Assembly: GCA_003104905.1 (NCBI GenBank)
Contig: PQAS01000044.1
Location: 1-42,985, forward strand
Direction of reading: 5' to 3'
DNA: 42,985 nucleotides
Source of the DNA: Candidatus Methanoperedentaceae archaeon
GTDB lineage: Archaea > Halobacteriota > Methanosarcinia > Methanosarcinales > Methanoperedenaceae
Shown: positions 20,167 to 26,761 of the stretch, in pieces
How the letters are laid out: each line of letters opens with the position of its first letter
How positions within the stretch are numbered: position 1 is the first letter of the stretch
Translations under genes and position numbers: made by a program
The notes under the pieces: generated by a model
Databases searched by the model: none
What the model was told of the DNA's origin: nothing
What the model saw: only the letters and a program-made list of their open reading frames with translations

Positions 20167-20325
20167 AGTAATTCTTCCTTTTGCCTTGAATATATTTTTG
20201 GTATTAATAAACCTGTATGTCATTTCATGTCATAAAATACTTCTAATTGACACAAAACACGAATGCCTTTACAAATACTCTTTTAAGATTGTCAGAAGAT
20301 AGGTTAAATAGCGTGGGGAAGGAAA

Positions 20326-21765
20326 ATGAATATTACGAGGCATATCTCTCTCGAAGATGAATACGTCGAGAAATTAAAACCCTATGTAGACAAGCACGAT
20401 GGGAATTTTGGTGCCGCATTAAGGGATATGATCAGCCGGGCGGGAAAATATGATACCCTCAATTCATCGGCGATCGATAACTCATTATTGAACTGGATAT
20501 TAAAGGAAAACGACGAAAAACTTGTTCCTTCTGATATCCTCAATGAATTCATAGATCCTGTGATGATGAATTCCATGGATAATCTGGAAATTTATCTCAA
20601 TCGCAGGTTCGGCGAACTTAAATGGGGAGTTCACATCACACTGAATTATGATAATGATCTTCTTCCGGGTGAAGTTTTGATGGAAATAAGCGGCGACCAT
20701 CAAAAAATAAGATTTATTACAAGTTTACTTACCCAGTATCTGGTTATCAATTCGCTCAGGCATATTCCCCTTGAAGTCAGGTCGGTCATTAACACCAACA
20801 AGGGGATAAAAGTAGAATTATCAGGTTCAAATAATAAAGATGCACTTATTAGCCTTGAGACTTTTTTTGGAAAGACAGATGAGCTTATCAGGACCGTAAA
20901 GAGTTATCCTGCGTTCTGGAAAGCTATTGTAAACAGGCATCTTTTGAGTAATTATAATATGGTCACAGTGCACAAGAATTATTTTGAGGATCTTCTTGAT
21001 GGAAAAATACCGGAATGGGAAGTAACGATAGAAAATCATGCAAAGAAGCCCATCAGGGAAATTCCTTTAAAAGACATGCTTGCGCTTATGAAAGAGGTCT
21101 TTGAGACATCAAGGATAGTGGACAGGGTGGAGATAGATAAAGATACCATGATATTATTCCATAGTTACAGGTCTAAGGGAGCTATTGAAAAACTAAGAAA
21201 GAGCTGCCATGCGCTTCTGGAAGCAAATGGCCACATGTATGATGCCAGGGCAACAGCAAACATCATAATAATGACCCACAGGTCTGATGTTGGCAGGAAA
21301 ATCAATGAGGTCGTAGACGCATTAAAAAACAGTTCAAACCGGCTGGACCAGGAGCTCCTTGTATTCTTTGGTTATCTAAAAGGATTAAAGGAAATACCTG
21401 ATATTCCCATGTCATTGACATCCCTGGGCAGAAGGACCGGCAAATCCTTAATGCAGGGATATGAACAGGAGACCCTTATCAAGACATGGACACTGGATAA
21501 TTTCCAGCAGGCGTTACACAGCATCGATACCAGAATCCATCGGGAGAGCGAATGGAAATTGGAGGGGAAGGATCTGCTATACACAGTAAGGAAATGTAAT
21601 ATTGCAGGAAACGGAAATGAATTTGATAATTATGTATGTCATACTGTGAGAGAAACCTTCAAAGGCGCACTGAGTTATGCTTTTGGAAATAAGGCAGAAA
21701 TGTACACAAAATACCTGCTGAGCCATGGGGATAATTTCTGCGAGGTGGTTATAAGAATGCTCTGA
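20326..21765 (+). CDS. Unknown protein with RHH-like N-terminus, paralogue 1
   Basis: The 479-residue soluble protein opens with a segment (residues 3-45: ITRHISLEDEYVEKLKPYV followed by a second helix) that resembles a ribbon-helix-helix DNA-binding domain: a short strand, then two helices. The rest is of mixed alpha/beta character without known motifs, ending in C-HTVRETFKGAL and a SHGDNFCEVVIRM tail that recalls the end of V4R-like sensor or methanogen output domains. This last likeness is weak. It is closely similar along its whole length to the protein at 22253-23695. A purine-rich GGGGAAGGAAA precedes the ATG. Function unknown; a transcription regulator with a ligand-sensing C-terminus is one possibility. 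Confidence 0.85.
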   Translation: MNITRHISLEDEYVEKLKPYVDKHDGNFGAALRDMISRAGKYDTLNSSAIDNSLLNWILKENDEKLVPSDILNEFIDPVMMNSMDNLEIYLNRRFGELKWGVHITLNYDNDLLPGEVLMEISGDHQKIRFITSLLTQYLVINSLRHIPLEVRSVINTNKGIKVELSGSNNKDALISLETFFGKTDELIRTVKSYPAFWKAIVNRHLLSNYNMVTVHKNYFEDLLDGKIPEWEVTIENHAKKPIREIPLKDMLALMKEVFETSRIVDRVEIDKDTMILFHSYRSKGAIEKLRKSCHALLEANGHMYDARATANIIIMTHRSDVGRKINEVVDALKNSSNRLDQELLVFFGYLKGLKEIPDIPMSLTSLGRRTGKSLMQGYEQETLIKTWTLDNFQQALHSIDTRIHRESEWKLEGKDLLYTVRKCNIAGNGNEFDNYVCHTVRETFKGALSYAFGNKAEMYTKYLLSHGDNFCEVVIRML

Positions 21766-21927
21766 TATTTTAAGATCGTTTGCCAAACTTTGCATTTCAC
21801 AGGCCATTCAATGGCATATTATGTCTCTTTTATGTCAAACCATGTCTATTCATGACTTTTCATGCTATCTTTCCGTCAAATATTCTTTTAACATTGGCAT
21901 TGGATAATCATATTTGGGTGAAGCAAT

Positions 21928-22209
21928 ATGAACAATTGGAAAAGGTATGTTGCAGCCGGGATCGTGATAGGAAGTGTCTATTTCCTGCCGTCAGAAAGTT
22001 TTATGGCTTTCATAACAGGATGGGTCATTCTTTTGCCGATCACAGCAGCTGTTTTTCTCGCCGTTGGACTGCGGGAATATATGAAGGACAGGAAGAACAG
22101 GATCATGGTTTCAATAAAGAGAACTGATGCCATGAACTCGCTTGCACGCAGGGAAGAAGAATTAATAAGGGAAAAGGAACTTCTTTATGAGCAATTTGGG
22201 AAAGTGTAA
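21928..22209 (+). CDS. Small membrane protein with C-terminal coiled coil
   Basis: The 93-residue protein has two transmembrane segments (about residues 6-25 and 28-46) followed by a basic stretch and a strongly helical, charged tail (ARREEELIREKELLYEQFGKV) likely to form a coiled coil in the cytoplasm. It lies between two paralogous RHH-like proteins on the same strand and may be a membrane anchor for one of them. No family recognised. Confidence 0.75.
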   Translation: MNNWKRYVAAGIVIGSVYFLPSESFMAFITGWVILLPITAAVFLAVGLREYMKDRKNRIMVSIKRTDAMNSLARREEELIREKELLYEQFGKV

Positions 22210-22252
22210 ATGAAGATTCCGAATAAATCGAACAAGGGACAGTGGGATTATT

Positions 22253-23695
22253 ATGATTGTTACAAGACATATCTCTCTTGACAATGATTGCATACAAAAG
22301 ATGGAGCCTTATGTTGAAAAACATAAAGGGAATTTCAGCGCCGCAATAAGAGAAATCATAGACCGGGCCGGGAAAAACAGTGAACTTGAGAACATATCCA
22401 CAATCGACAATACATTGTTCAAATGGATGCTCAACGAAACCGATGGTTTGCTTGTCCCGGATAATGTACTGGATGATCTGATAGATCCCATGCTGATAAA
22501 TTCGATGGGAAAACTTGAAGATTATCTCAAGAAGAAATTCAGTGAACTGGAGTGGGATGTTGACATATCTCTAAAATGCGATAATGATGTCTCGGCATCA
22601 GATGTATTGATAGAGGTCAAAGGTTCACCCCAGAAAATAAGGTTCATTTCAAGGATACTTGCCCAGTATATTGTGAAAAATTCACCTGAGCATTCTCCTC
22701 TTGAGATATCTTCGGTTTTTAATCTTGATGGATGTATAAGGGTCGAATTATCAAAATCGAACAAGAAGCAAGGATACAATAGCCTGATAGCTTCTTTTGG
22801 CGGTTTAAATGAAGTGATCCAGGCCATCAGGAGCCGTCCTGTATTCTGGAAATCAATAATCAACGGCCATCTTCTGAGCAATTACAATATGGTGACAGTT
22901 CACAGGAATTACTTTGAGGATCTTCTGTCAGGCAAAGTCCCGATGGGTGAGATAACAATAGAAACGCTTGCCAAGAAACCTATAGGGGAAATACCTCTTA
23001 AAGAAATGCTTTCCCTGATAAAGGAAGTATATGAAACTTCAAGAGTTGTGGACCGGGTGGAAGTGGACCGGGAGAATCTCATATTATTTCATAATTACAG
23101 GAACAAGGAGGTAATTGACAAACTAAAAACAAGCATTGTCACACTACTTGAAGCGAATGGCCACCTGTACGATGCCAAATCCACTGCCAATATGGTAGTG
23201 CTGACACACAGGCCTGATGTGGGCATCAGGATAAATGAGATAGTAAGCAACCTCAAGATCAGCAACAGCAGGGTGGACCAGGACCTGATCATGTTCATGG
23301 CTTTCTTAAAAGGGCTAAAGAACATTCCGGATATACCTGTATCCCTGACAGCACTTGGAAGAAGGATCGGGGTATCCCTGATGCATGAGTACGAAAAAGA
23401 GAACAATATTAAGAGCTGGGAGTTTCAAAATTTCCAGAAAGCTCTTGAAATAATTGATACTAAACTCCACAGGGAAAGCGAATGGAAAGCTGATGGGAAG
23501 AATTTACTATATACCGTCAAGAAATGCAATATTGTCGCGGAAGGTAATACAGTCGATAAATATATCTGCCACACAATAAGGGAAACTTTCAAAGGGGCAA
23601 TGAACCACGCTTTTGGGAACAGGGCAGAGTTAGACATTAAAAAATTATTGTCACACGGGGACAACTGTTGTGAGGTGTTAATACGAGTGCCATAA
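22253..23695 (+). CDS. Unknown protein with RHH-like N-terminus, paralogue 2
   Basis: This 480-residue protein is a full-length paralogue of the product at 20326-21765. Shared blocks include VTRHISL at the start, HLLSNYNMVTVH near residue 205, EIPLKEML, and a CHTIRETFKGAM ... LSHGDNCCEVLIR ending. The N-terminal 45 residues again look like a ribbon-helix-helix domain. The gene lies 43 bases after the small membrane protein and 82 bases before the cytochrome gene. Two diverged copies flanking a membrane protein suggest a duplication kept for different signals. No enzymatic motif is visible. Confidence 0.85.
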   Translation: MIVTRHISLDNDCIQKMEPYVEKHKGNFSAAIREIIDRAGKNSELENISTIDNTLFKWMLNETDGLLVPDNVLDDLIDPMLINSMGKLEDYLKKKFSELEWDVDISLKCDNDVSASDVLIEVKGSPQKIRFISRILAQYIVKNSPEHSPLEISSVFNLDGCIRVELSKSNKKQGYNSLIASFGGLNEVIQAIRSRPVFWKSIINGHLLSNYNMVTVHRNYFEDLLSGKVPMGEITIETLAKKPIGEIPLKEMLSLIKEVYETSRVVDRVEVDRENLILFHNYRNKEVIDKLKTSIVTLLEANGHLYDAKSTANMVVLTHRPDVGIRINEIVSNLKISNSRVDQDLIMFMAFLKGLKNIPDIPVSLTALGRRIGVSLMHEYEKENNIKSWEFQNFQKALEIIDTKLHRESEWKADGKNLLYTVKKCNIVAEGNTVDKYICHTIRETFKGAMNHAFGNRAELDIKKLLSHGDNCCEVLIRVP

Positions 23696-23777
23696 AATTA
23701 GAAATTCTGGATAAAAATTGGATAGCAGGAGAAATAATGAAAAAAATTGATGTAAATATTAAAATAGGAGGGTGAAA

Positions 23778-24581
23778 ATGAACACATTACTTGAATTCAT
23801 AACATTTGTAAAGGGGGTGGAATACATGATAGTCATAGCATTTTGTTTTGGGTTTATCGCCCTCTGGATACTGGTAAACTCAAAAGACAAAATGGCAATG
23901 TCAAAAATCGTCTCTTTTGTTATTCCACTATCTCTTGTATTCGGCGGGGGAGCGATCTTGCTTTCTTCAAGCGAACCTTCCGATATTCCCTCAGTTACGA
24001 ATGCGACAGAAGTAGCAGCTACTGCCCTTCCTGGAAATGTGCAAGAAGTCACCCTGTCTTCAAACACATGGCCGACAGTTAATAAAACAGAATATCTGTC
24101 TATCAAATACGGGCCTGCGACTGCATTCCATACAGTGATGAGCGAGAAAGTAAGTTGTACAACATGCCATCACAATAGCGGGGATGAAATACATGCCTGC
24201 AAGGACTGCCATGATAGTCCGACAAATCCGCATGATTCAACAAAGCCCGGCCTTAAGGCTGCCTATCACGAGCGATGCATATCATGCCATAAAGAAGAAA
24301 TAAGCGGTCCTGACAGCTGCAAGAAATGTCATACAGGGGAGGCAAAAGCAGCTTCTGTAGTTGCAGCTCCGGCACGGCCTCACCAGCTAACATGGGACAC
24401 TTGCAGTAAGTGCCACAAGGACGGCATACCCAATGGAGGTGTGGAGTCAAAGATCGTGTATCATGACAGCTGTGTCAAATGCCATTCAAAAGGAATTGCA
24501 GGGGCGGCCCTGATACCGGAAGACCACGCAGGAAGAGCAGGCAGCACATGCCAGGGATGCCATAAGCCTGTGGGAGGATAA
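23778..24581 (+). CDS. Membrane-anchored heptaheme cytochrome c
   Basis: The 267-residue protein has two N-terminal hydrophobic helices (about 16-34 and 44-62), then an extracytoplasmic domain with seven CxxCH haem motifs at residues 127, 141, 167, 181, 209, 232 and 258. Spacing and many extra histidines recall class III / cytochrome c7-type folds with bis-His haems. I start at the ATG at 23778, six bases after GGAGG; a GTG two codons upstream is too close to that site. It is the first gene of a cytochrome/FeS/NrfD module and is likely the part that exchanges electrons outside the membrane. Confidence 0.92.
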   Translation: MNTLLEFITFVKGVEYMIVIAFCFGFIALWILVNSKDKMAMSKIVSFVIPLSLVFGGGAILLSSSEPSDIPSVTNATEVAATALPGNVQEVTLSSNTWPTVNKTEYLSIKYGPATAFHTVMSEKVSCTTCHHNSGDEIHACKDCHDSPTNPHDSTKPGLKAAYHERCISCHKEEISGPDSCKKCHTGEAKAASVVAAPARPHQLTWDTCSKCHKDGIPNGGVESKIVYHDSCVKCHSKGIAGAALIPEDHAGRAGSTCQGCHKPVGG

Positions 24582-24585
24582 AAAT

Positions 24586-25500
24586 ATGGTAAAAAGAAGA
24601 GATCTGATCAAGATAGGCGCAACAGTCGTTGCGGCAGGCGTTCTTGGAGCCCAGAATGTTCTTGGCTCAACGGATTTTGAAGGTAATCCCGAACGCCTGG
24701 GAATGCTGACAGATACCACAAGATGTATCGGATGCAGACGCTGTGAAGCGGCGTGTAATAAGGCAAACAATCTTCCTGCTCCGAAAACCTCATTTGAAGA
24801 TACCTCGGTTTTTGAAGAAGAGAGAAAACCATATGTTGCAGATGTCGGGTCGTATACTGCGGTAAACAGGTTCGAGGGAGAGGATGGAAAACCTGTATAT
24901 CGTAAAGTGCAGTGCATGCACTGTGATGAGCCGGCATGCGTTACAGCCTGTCCTGTGGCAGCATTGACCAAATCAGAAGCAGGGCCTGTGGTCTGGGATG
25001 AAACAATCTGTATTGGATGCCGTTATTGCATCACAGCATGCCCATTCTATGTCCCGGCTTTTGAATATTCAAGCGCTTTTGATCCCAAGATACAGAAATG
25101 CTTCATGTGCAACCAGAGGATCAAAGACGGTCTTGTACCGGCATGTGCCGAAGCATGTCCTGTTGAAGCCATTCAATTTGGAAAGAAAAAAGATCTGCTC
25201 AAAATGGCGAAGTTGAGAATATGGGGTTCACCAGATAAATATATCGACCATGTCTATGGCGAAACCGAAGCAGGCGGGACAGGATGGATGTATATTTCAA
25301 AACTGGAATTTGAAAAAATGGGATTTCCGGAAAATATCGGGACTACATCATTTCCGAAATTGACCAAGGATTTCCTGTCCATGGTAAATCTGACGCTTGT
25401 CTCATGGCCTGCATTGCTTGGAGGTTTCTATATGGCGTCACATAAGAAACCGCATGGTGAACATGATGAAGAACCAAAGGAGGAAATAAAACATGAATGA
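24586..25500 (+). CDS. Tat-exported iron-sulfur protein (NrfC/HybA/DmsB type)
   Basis: The 304-residue protein begins with a twin-arginine signal (KRRDLIKIGATVVAAG) and carries four [4Fe-4S] cluster motifs: CIGCRRCEAAC, CMHCDEPACVTACP, CIGCRYCITACP and CFMCNQ with CAEACP. A C-terminal hydrophobic helix (about 268-286) anchors it, as in HybA. It would relay electrons between the quinone-reactive NrfD-type protein and the heptaheme cytochrome on the outer face of the membrane. The gene is four bases after the cytochrome gene and overlaps the next by eight bases. Confidence 0.93.
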   Translation: MVKRRDLIKIGATVVAAGVLGAQNVLGSTDFEGNPERLGMLTDTTRCIGCRRCEAACNKANNLPAPKTSFEDTSVFEEERKPYVADVGSYTAVNRFEGEDGKPVYRKVQCMHCDEPACVTACPVAALTKSEAGPVVWDETICIGCRYCITACPFYVPAFEYSSAFDPKIQKCFMCNQRIKDGLVPACAEACPVEAIQFGKKKDLLKMAKLRIWGSPDKYIDHVYGETEAGGTGWMYISKLEFEKMGFPENIGTTSFPKLTKDFLSMVNLTLVSWPALLGGFYMASHKKPHGEHDEEPKEEIKHE

Positions 25501-26761
25501 ATTTGGAGATGAATCAGCGGAAAGACATGTATATCCCGCTGATGAACTGACAGGTGCGGAAATAATTTCTAACTGGTTCAGAGATAAGATATTTTTGGGG
25601 CTTTCGTTTAAGGAATATATGAAAACCCTCATCACTCCTCTTAATATTGCTGCGGGTATTGTAGTAATGGCGGGTCTATTCCTGATAGCTGTGAGGTTTA
25701 TTTTCGGACTTGACCAGATAACTGAAGCATCGAATGAACAGCCATGGGGTCTTTTCCTGACATGGGGATTATTCAGCGGAGTGCCATTCTCAGGATCCGG
25801 ATTTGTGGTAGGGACAGGGGTATATATTTTCGGGGTTAAGAGATACCAGCCTATTGTCAAGAACGCCATATTGCTGGGTTTTCTGGGCTATCTGTTTGCG
25901 GTAATTTTCCTCTTGATCGACCTTGGCCGTCCATGGAGGATATATTATCCCATGATAATCTCTTTCGGGACTGCATCAGTCATGTTCCTTGTAGCATGGC
26001 ACGTGGCTCTTTACTTGACGGTGCAGTTGTTTGAATTCAGTCCCTCGATTTTTGCATGGCTGAATCAAAAATACCTTCGAAAAGTGGCTGTCAGCGCGAC
26101 TCTGGGGCTTACAATATTCGGCGTAATGCTCTCCACTCTTCATCAGTCCGCACTTAATGCCATGTTCCTTCTTGCTCCCGGTAAGGTGCATCCGCTATGG
26201 TATACATCGTACCTCCCGTGGCTTGCGTTCATATCTGCTATAGGGGCGGCAATGGCCCTGATGATAGTTGTCAGCAAGCTCACGACCATCTATTTCAGGA
26301 ACAGGGCATCCCCTGAATATCTTGCAAGCATAGATGATGTTACGATCGGTCTTGGAAAAGCATCTTCGTTCGTTCTTTTCACCTATCTTGGAATGAGATT
26401 GATAAGCATCACACATGAGGGCTCGTGGGGTTATCTAAATTCGCCAATAGGATACTGGTTCCTGGTAGAAATAGGGCTCTTTGCGATAGTCCCCCTGATG
26501 TATTATTATGGGGTATTGAAGAAAAATGTGAAACTTATCCAGGTGACAGGGGTATTCACAATGATTGCAATAATACTCAACAGGTTCAACCTGACTCTGA
26601 TAACCTTCAATTATCAGCTTCCCAACAGGGAACTTTTCTTCTGGAAGGAAGCTCTAGTGGTAATATCAGTGATTATTATTGAGATATTGATATACCGATG
26701 GATCATTAACAGGATGCCGGTTCTTCGGGATCATCCCGATTTCCCGAATGATGGGCATTAA
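25493..26761 (+). CDS. nrfD: NrfD/PsrC family quinone-interacting membrane protein
   Basis: The 422-residue integral membrane protein has about ten helices and fits the NrfD/PsrC family: LFLTWGLFSGVPFSGSGFVVG, DLGRPWRIYYP and LSTLHQSALNAMFLL (a histidine in the last is typical). Members oxidise or reduce membrane quinones and pass electrons to a partner FeS protein. The start overlaps the FeS gene by eight bases, with AGGAGG eight bases upstream. With the cytochrome and the FeS protein it forms a quinone:cytochrome c oxidoreductase-like unit. No molybdopterin catalytic subunit is present. Confidence 0.92.
   Translation: MNEFGDESAERHVYPADELTGAEIISNWFRDKIFLGLSFKEYMKTLITPLNIAAGIVVMAGLFLIAVRFIFGLDQITEASNEQPWGLFLTWGLFSGVPFSGSGFVVGTGVYIFGVKRYQPIVKNAILLGFLGYLFAVIFLLIDLGRPWRIYYPMIISFGTASVMFLVAWHVALYLTVQLFEFSPSIFAWLNQKYLRKVAVSATLGLTIFGVMLSTLHQSALNAMFLLAPGKVHPLWYTSYLPWLAFISAIGAAMALMIVVSKLTTIYFRNRASPEYLASIDDVTIGLGKASSFVLFTYLGMRLISITHEGSWGYLNSPIGYWFLVEIGLFAIVPLMYYYGVLKKNVKLIQVTGVFTMIAIILNRFNLTLITFNYQLPNRELFFWKEALVVISVIIIEILIYRWIINRMPVLRDHPDFPNDGH

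Follow-up and report, generated by a model that had tools for sequence, protein, structure and literature searches.

A predicted RHH- and V4R-like regulator family with a membrane partner upstream of a menaquinone:cytochrome c oxidoreductase operon in Candidatus Methanoperedens

Introduction

Nitrate, iron, manganese or electrodes can take up the electrons that Methanoperedens obtains from methane, and the species of Methanoperedens differ in the menaquinone:cytochrome c oxidoreductases that they express with different acceptors (PMC7327174, PMC7082337). The available text of these two reports names no regulator of the oxidoreductases. A related cluster, Metp_01713-01722, consists of C-B-A, three unknown proteins, cytochrome b, a heme protein and two further unknowns; it is partly upregulated on an electrode relative to nitrate, not in all of its genes, and part of it is expressed in both conditions (PMC10874420). 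As far as the accessible portions of the three reports extend, the unknown proteins are given no function and no regulator or operator is described. Among archaeal regulators, MsvR of M. acetivorans and M. thermautotrophicus is a one-component protein that joins a DNA-binding domain to a C-terminal V4R domain and regulates its own gene through several operator boxes (PMC3729527). The N-terminus of MsvR is a winged-helix/HTH unit, and its V4R domain contains three conserved redox cysteines (C206, C232 and C240 in MaMsvR). The V4R/Bet3-type fold is also found in the DmpR/MopR/XylR-type phenol sensors, which possess a sigma54 AAA+ domain. A second relevant group, the RHH/CopG/MetJ/omega repressors, bind repeated short operators at helical spacing and are either small or fused to other sensor domains.

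Here, a locus is described in which two paralogous proteins, RHH-1 and RHH-2, surround a small membrane protein and precede a respiratory operon. They are best read, with a probability of about 0.7, as autoregulated one-component regulators (RHH plus V4R) that act with a membrane partner and control a menaquinone:cytochrome c oxidoreductase operon. Relative to MsvR, they have an RHH-like N-terminus, an additional middle region of ~280 residues, the membrane partner and linkage to electron-transfer operons; autoregulation through several operator boxes, the other point of likeness, is only predicted for them. What is new at the DNA level is a set of helically phased TGNCA sites that overlap a composite element at the promoters of RHH-1 and the membrane gene.

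Results and Discussion

A three-gene cassette directly precedes a respiratory operon

The window, which refers to the whole 42,985-nucleotide stretch of DNA that was analysed, belongs to the 2.9-Mb genome of a Candidatus Methanoperedens (ANME-2d) archaeon. RHH-1 (20326-21765, 479 aa), the membrane gene (21928-22209, 93 aa) and RHH-2 (22253-23695, 480 aa) share the forward strand with the genes that follow them, which encode a 7-heme c-type cytochrome with an HmcA/TmcA-like motif region (23778-24581; a GTG at 23772 is also possible as the start), an HmcB-like 4Fe-4S protein (24586-25500; NF045715, 369.5 bits against a cut-off of 420) and an HmcC-like integral membrane protein of the NrfD family (25493-26761). 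An 82-bp gap separates RHH-2 from the cytochrome gene, the first gene of the probable target operon. RHH-1 and RHH-2 are 59% identical over a full-length alignment, which, together with the open reading frames, bears out the preliminary description of two ~480-residue paralogues that enclose a membrane protein of two helices and immediately precede a respiratory module. The operon is of the same kind as the menaquinone:cytochrome c oxidoreductase described in Methanoperedenaceae (PMC7327174), and of the clusters in the available parts of PMC7082337 and PMC10874420; the gene order of Metp_01713-01722 agrees with that of the loci found here. Judged by gene order, the only point of match in the text at hand, the unknown proteins of Metp_01713-01722 most likely belong to the same family, and upregulation on the electrode relative to nitrate would fit acceptor-dependent control.

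None of RHH-1, the membrane protein and RHH-2 has a Pfam or NCBIfam match above cut-off. No Rfam element was found between 19900 and 24000, and no description of the RHH-1/RHH-2 family was found in the open-access literature. RHH proteins are common antitoxins, and each genome holds many paralogues of the family, as might be seen if the cassette were a mobile or defence-type element, such as a toxin-antitoxin system, and lay beside the respiratory operon by chance. This explanation is hardly credible: PADLOC returned nothing for the cassette, PHROG gave a single uninformative match, a search of viral contigs recovered no relative, and the family occupies stable orthologous positions in its tree.

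The C-terminus is predicted to be a V4R/Bet3-type sensor domain

An AlphaFold2 model of RHH-1 (mean pLDDT 71.6, pTM 0.45) ends in a helices-ββ-helix-ββ unit at residues ~340-479. The top Foldseek match for this unit is TRAPP Bet3 (E 2.9e-4, probability 1.00), followed by CeSD, H-NOX and Thorarchaeal TRAPPC3, with TM-scores normalised by target of ~0.5 at most; TRAPPC3 was found independently in a profile search of PDB sequences by hmmsearch. Against Pfam V4R (PF02830), the best score in the family is 18.5 bits (E 0.006, for a paralogue in the window genome), and the other matches have sub-threshold E values of 0.12-0.3; because the curated cut-off of 31 is not reached, the family is classed as V4R-like and kept outside the Pfam family. 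When aligned with MsvR by profile, it matches over residues 343-477 (P 0.007 for this single comparison). Three Cys residues, C424, C438 and C472, are invariant among 33 family sequences. Two of the three MsvR cysteines are thereby matched, as C438 and C472 align with C206 and C240 at an identical spacing of 34 residues, whereas the position of C232 is a leucine and C424 is an addition. From the model and the profile comparisons, the C-terminus is thus assigned as a V4R/Bet3-type sensor domain, a match at the level of fold that stays sub-threshold by sequence. The weak likeness to ligand-binding output domains noted previously for the last 50 residues corresponds to the end of this ~140-residue domain. 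DmpR appears as a weak Foldseek match of the middle-region model only, the Zn-site pattern of the DmpR/MopR/XylR sensors is not kept in RHH-1 and RHH-2, and the two proteins lack a sigma54 AAA+ domain. The window genome also encodes a separate HTH-V4R protein that resembles MsvR (G000:C7:16778-16954, L205).

The N-terminus has a plausible RHH pattern and precedes an α/β middle region

Residues 1-45 follow an R/K-H/N-I-S-L pattern with helices at 11-23 and 28-40 and a GN(F/L)SAA turn between them, similar to the short strand-helix-helix pattern of the RHH/CopG/MetJ/omega repressors. N27, A30, R33 and I36 are invariant, and the strand residues T4-R/K5-H6-I7-S8 are shared by RHH-1 and RHH-2, which fits one common type of DNA site. 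The best Pfam RHH_1 match (E 0.026) is below cut-off, and no RHH protein was among the matches when the PDB was searched with the N-terminal profile; no HTH family matches RHH-1 or RHH-2 above cut-off. In the RHH-1 model, two short N-terminal helices are present, and the strand region has a pLDDT below 50 and is not called by DSSP. The suggestion that the N-termini are RHH units is therefore retained as plausible on the sequence pattern and the two predicted helices, and is not carried by the strand or by the profile and PDB searches.

The middle region of RHH-1 (residues ~46-325) is α/β in the model and possibly represents a new or degenerate fold. The corresponding DNA (20461-21300) is predicted to encode two α-ββ-α-ββ units, with weak and inconsistent matches to YajQ and I-DmoI; there is no internal repeat at the sequence level, and the two halves fail to align by profile. 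A LAGLIDADG assignment was rejected, as the I-DmoI probability is 0.4-0.8 but the rmsd is ~22 Å and the TM-score ~0.17-0.26. YajQ is the best match, and a second model and search supported neither a LAGLIDADG nor a YajQ-like fold.

Family members are inherited together with their neighbours

The family is widespread in its order: relatives occur in 50 of 60 nearby genomes and in 111 of the 238 genomes of the class, Methanosarcina included. In 25 Methanoperedens genomes, a family member lies directly upstream of every NrfD-like locus (26/26), a linkage that is not due to chance and that provides the repeated association with nrfD genes by which the preliminary description had proposed to check its reading. 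Other copies precede a 6-heme cytochrome/cytochrome b pair and are almost contiguous with these genes. In a tree of 81 family copies, the neighbour label changes 19 times, compared to 45.5 when labels are shuffled, and 17 of the 19 pre-cytochrome copies, RHH-2 among this group, fall in one clade. From the tree, a family copy and its neighbour appear to be inherited together. In the ANME-2 relatives, copies are found beside Rnf plus a 9-heme cytochrome, the Mtr operon or an Mrp-like antiporter. That some family copies adjoin an Mtr operon, archease/RtcB genes or an Mrp-like antiporter counts against the operon-control reading.

This steady linkage to menaquinone:cytochrome c oxidoreductase genes, along with a membrane protein that has a cytoplasmic tail, could also be expected if the family were cytoplasmic or membrane-peripheral assembly or regulatory subunits of the oxidoreductases, held by the small protein, and the operator array belonged to another regulator. 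The V4R/Bet3 fold is used by membrane-peripheral scaffolds such as TRAPP as well. We consider subunits of this kind unlikely, given the N-terminal RHH pattern with its invariant residues, the Methanosarcina members beside genes unrelated to cytochromes, and DNA elements (see below) that stand almost exclusively before family genes even away from cytochrome genes.

In the one Methanosarcina genome examined (5,751,492 bp), the copies lack the C-terminal domain, and matches stop near residue 320. Three short-form copies without the V4R-like domain are arranged in tandem (L165, 6569-10300), and one copy has archease/RtcB genes on one side and the Mtr operon on the other (L166, 6586-7716); an archease/RtcB neighbourhood of a family copy is also present in the genome of the window (L040). 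At four ANME-2 loci (L106-L108, L057), a long-form copy is tail-to-tail with Rnf genes together with genes for a 9-heme cytochrome and a cytochrome-b-like protein.

Phased TGNCA sites overlap a composite promoter element

Upstream of RHH-1, TGNCA sites are located at 20218, 20228 and 20248 (20218-20252; spacings of 10 and 20 bp), and a fourth, at 20290, lies inside a composite promoter/operator element, ACAAATACTCTTTTAAGATTGTCAGAAGATA, on the forward strand at 20271-20301, 25 bp before the ATG. Before the membrane gene, a candidate operator array (21781-21866) has TGNCA sites at 21781, 21812 and 21833 (spacings of 31 and 21 bp) and, between 21811 and 21856, degenerate copies of ATGNC at intervals of 10-11 bp; the next site, a TGGCA at 21895 (+62 bp), is within the composite element TCAAATATTCTTTTAACATTGGCATTGGATA (21876-21906, forward strand, 22 bp before the ATG). 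The sites that overlap the general form of the element, CAAATATTCTTTTAnnnTTGnCAnnnGATA, are in helical register (10/20/30 bp), and the phased array is conserved in relatives. Across 16 non-redundant regions, the density of TGNCA is 34.3 per kb before the membrane gene, relative to 3.4 per kb before other genes and 3.2 in shuffled sequence. Over all loci, the spacings of site pairs peak at 10, 20/21, 30/31, 40/41, 50/51 and 60/61 bp. In 1.05 Mb, 31 chains have at least four sites in phase, and every one of them stands before a family gene, although these represent fewer than 31 independent cases because the loci overlap in part; five Markov controls gave 0, 0, 0, 0 and 1 chains, and out of phase there were none. 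A simple three-site TGNCA pattern was too weak across the genus, with scattered matches; it is the longer chains and the composite element that are specific.

With up to three mismatches, the composite element TCAAATATTCTTTTANNNTTGNCANNNGATA has three sites in the 2.9-Mb genome, each of which precedes a family gene. In 24 genomes of the genus it has 40 sites, compared to none for a reversed control. Among 32 distinct sites whose surroundings were examined, 31 stand in front of a gene for a membrane protein or an RHH protein; the exception (L202) has three mismatches. Since the element was read off the two window promoters and their relatives, its presence at those promoters is by construction, and its specificity is tested by its absence elsewhere in the genomes. 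The phased array and the composite element are accordingly placed near-exclusively before family genes. The regulators are therefore expected to bind at 21781-21906, before the membrane gene, and at 20218-20301, before RHH-1. The preliminary description had instead looked for DNA binding upstream of 23778, a location that is abandoned here: the 17 non-redundant regions upstream of cytochrome genes, this one included, have no TGNCA sites, and the predicted sites are now those of the two promoters near 21900 and 20300.

The empty cytochrome upstream regions, together with the 82-bp gap and the part of the PMC10874420 cluster that its available text describes as expressed under both conditions, favour a narrower scheme in which regulation by the proteins is confined to the genes that encode them and to the linked membrane gene, and the cytochrome operon is a neighbour with its own promoter. 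As no array directly precedes the cytochrome genes, a promoter inside the 23696-23777 gap would not come under this control. This scheme is nevertheless judged quite unlikely, as it sits poorly with the linkage at 26/26 loci, where strand and gene order are constant, with the single regulator clade tied to the cytochrome operon and with the near-contiguity of other copies with their 6-heme/cytochrome b genes.

A proposed route from sensor to promoter

In the favoured reading, control of the oxidoreductase operon by RHH-1 and RHH-2, a dimeric N-terminal RHH unit would bind TGNCA half-sites on one face of the DNA, spanning the promoters of RHH-1 and the membrane gene and the stretches upstream of both. 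The C-terminal V4R/Bet3-type domain would take the signal, possibly the cytoplasmic redox state via the invariant cysteines as in MsvR, and thereby alter DNA binding. With the operon promoter before the membrane gene, the regulators would jointly control the membrane gene, RHH-2 and the 7-heme cytochrome/HmcB/NrfD genes, themselves included. The overlap of the sites with the core promoter suggests repression that is released by the signal, with activation as the alternative. This model proposes that RHH-1 and RHH-2 bind the array, and the direction of control, the signal and the part played by the membrane protein are likewise proposals, and the phased array could be bound by some other factor. 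The regulators and their membrane partner probably decide when the outward electron route turns on. More tentatively, with less than even confidence, this unnamed archaeal family (RHH, new middle domain, V4R) and its dedicated partner may constitute a membrane-to-DNA redox switch that chooses the menaquinone:cytochrome c oxidoreductase of Methanoperedens via cooperative binding on phased TGNCA arrays. Work on acceptor-dependent respiratory control can now start from named candidate regulators, a precisely defined promoter element and a type of sensor domain, which makes regulation testable in DNA-binding assays with recombinant protein, without the need to culture Methanoperedens.

The small membrane protein is a candidate partner

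The two hydrophobic segments and the charged tail of the membrane protein are kept in ~50 relatives. The tail is predicted to be helical, of the R-I-x-V-x-I-K-P-T-E-A-M-x-A-L-A-R-R-E type, and from hydropathy and charge it and both termini are predicted to lie in the cytoplasm. In the proposed mechanism, the tail probably holds or releases the regulators, so that the promoter would respond to the state of the electron chain in the membrane. The earlier notion of a membrane-linked sensory pair that controls the electron-transfer genes gains from the V4R-like domain, the linkage to NrfD-like loci and the family-specific promoter element, and its term "membrane-linked", like the partnership suggested here, denotes genetic linkage only. 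The window genome has four full-length family copies in addition to shorter forms; the two besides RHH-1 and RHH-2 lie on either side of genes for a membrane protein and an 844-aa P-type-ATPase-like protein (G000:C34:38339-44894, L039), before the 6-heme cytochrome/cytochrome b pair, an arrangement that a second Methanoperedens shares (L091). Copies located before the 6-heme cytochrome are preceded by a shorter membrane protein variant of ~60 aa (L046:13477-13665, L051:8130-8312 and similar), which has the two helices and no cytoplasmic tail.
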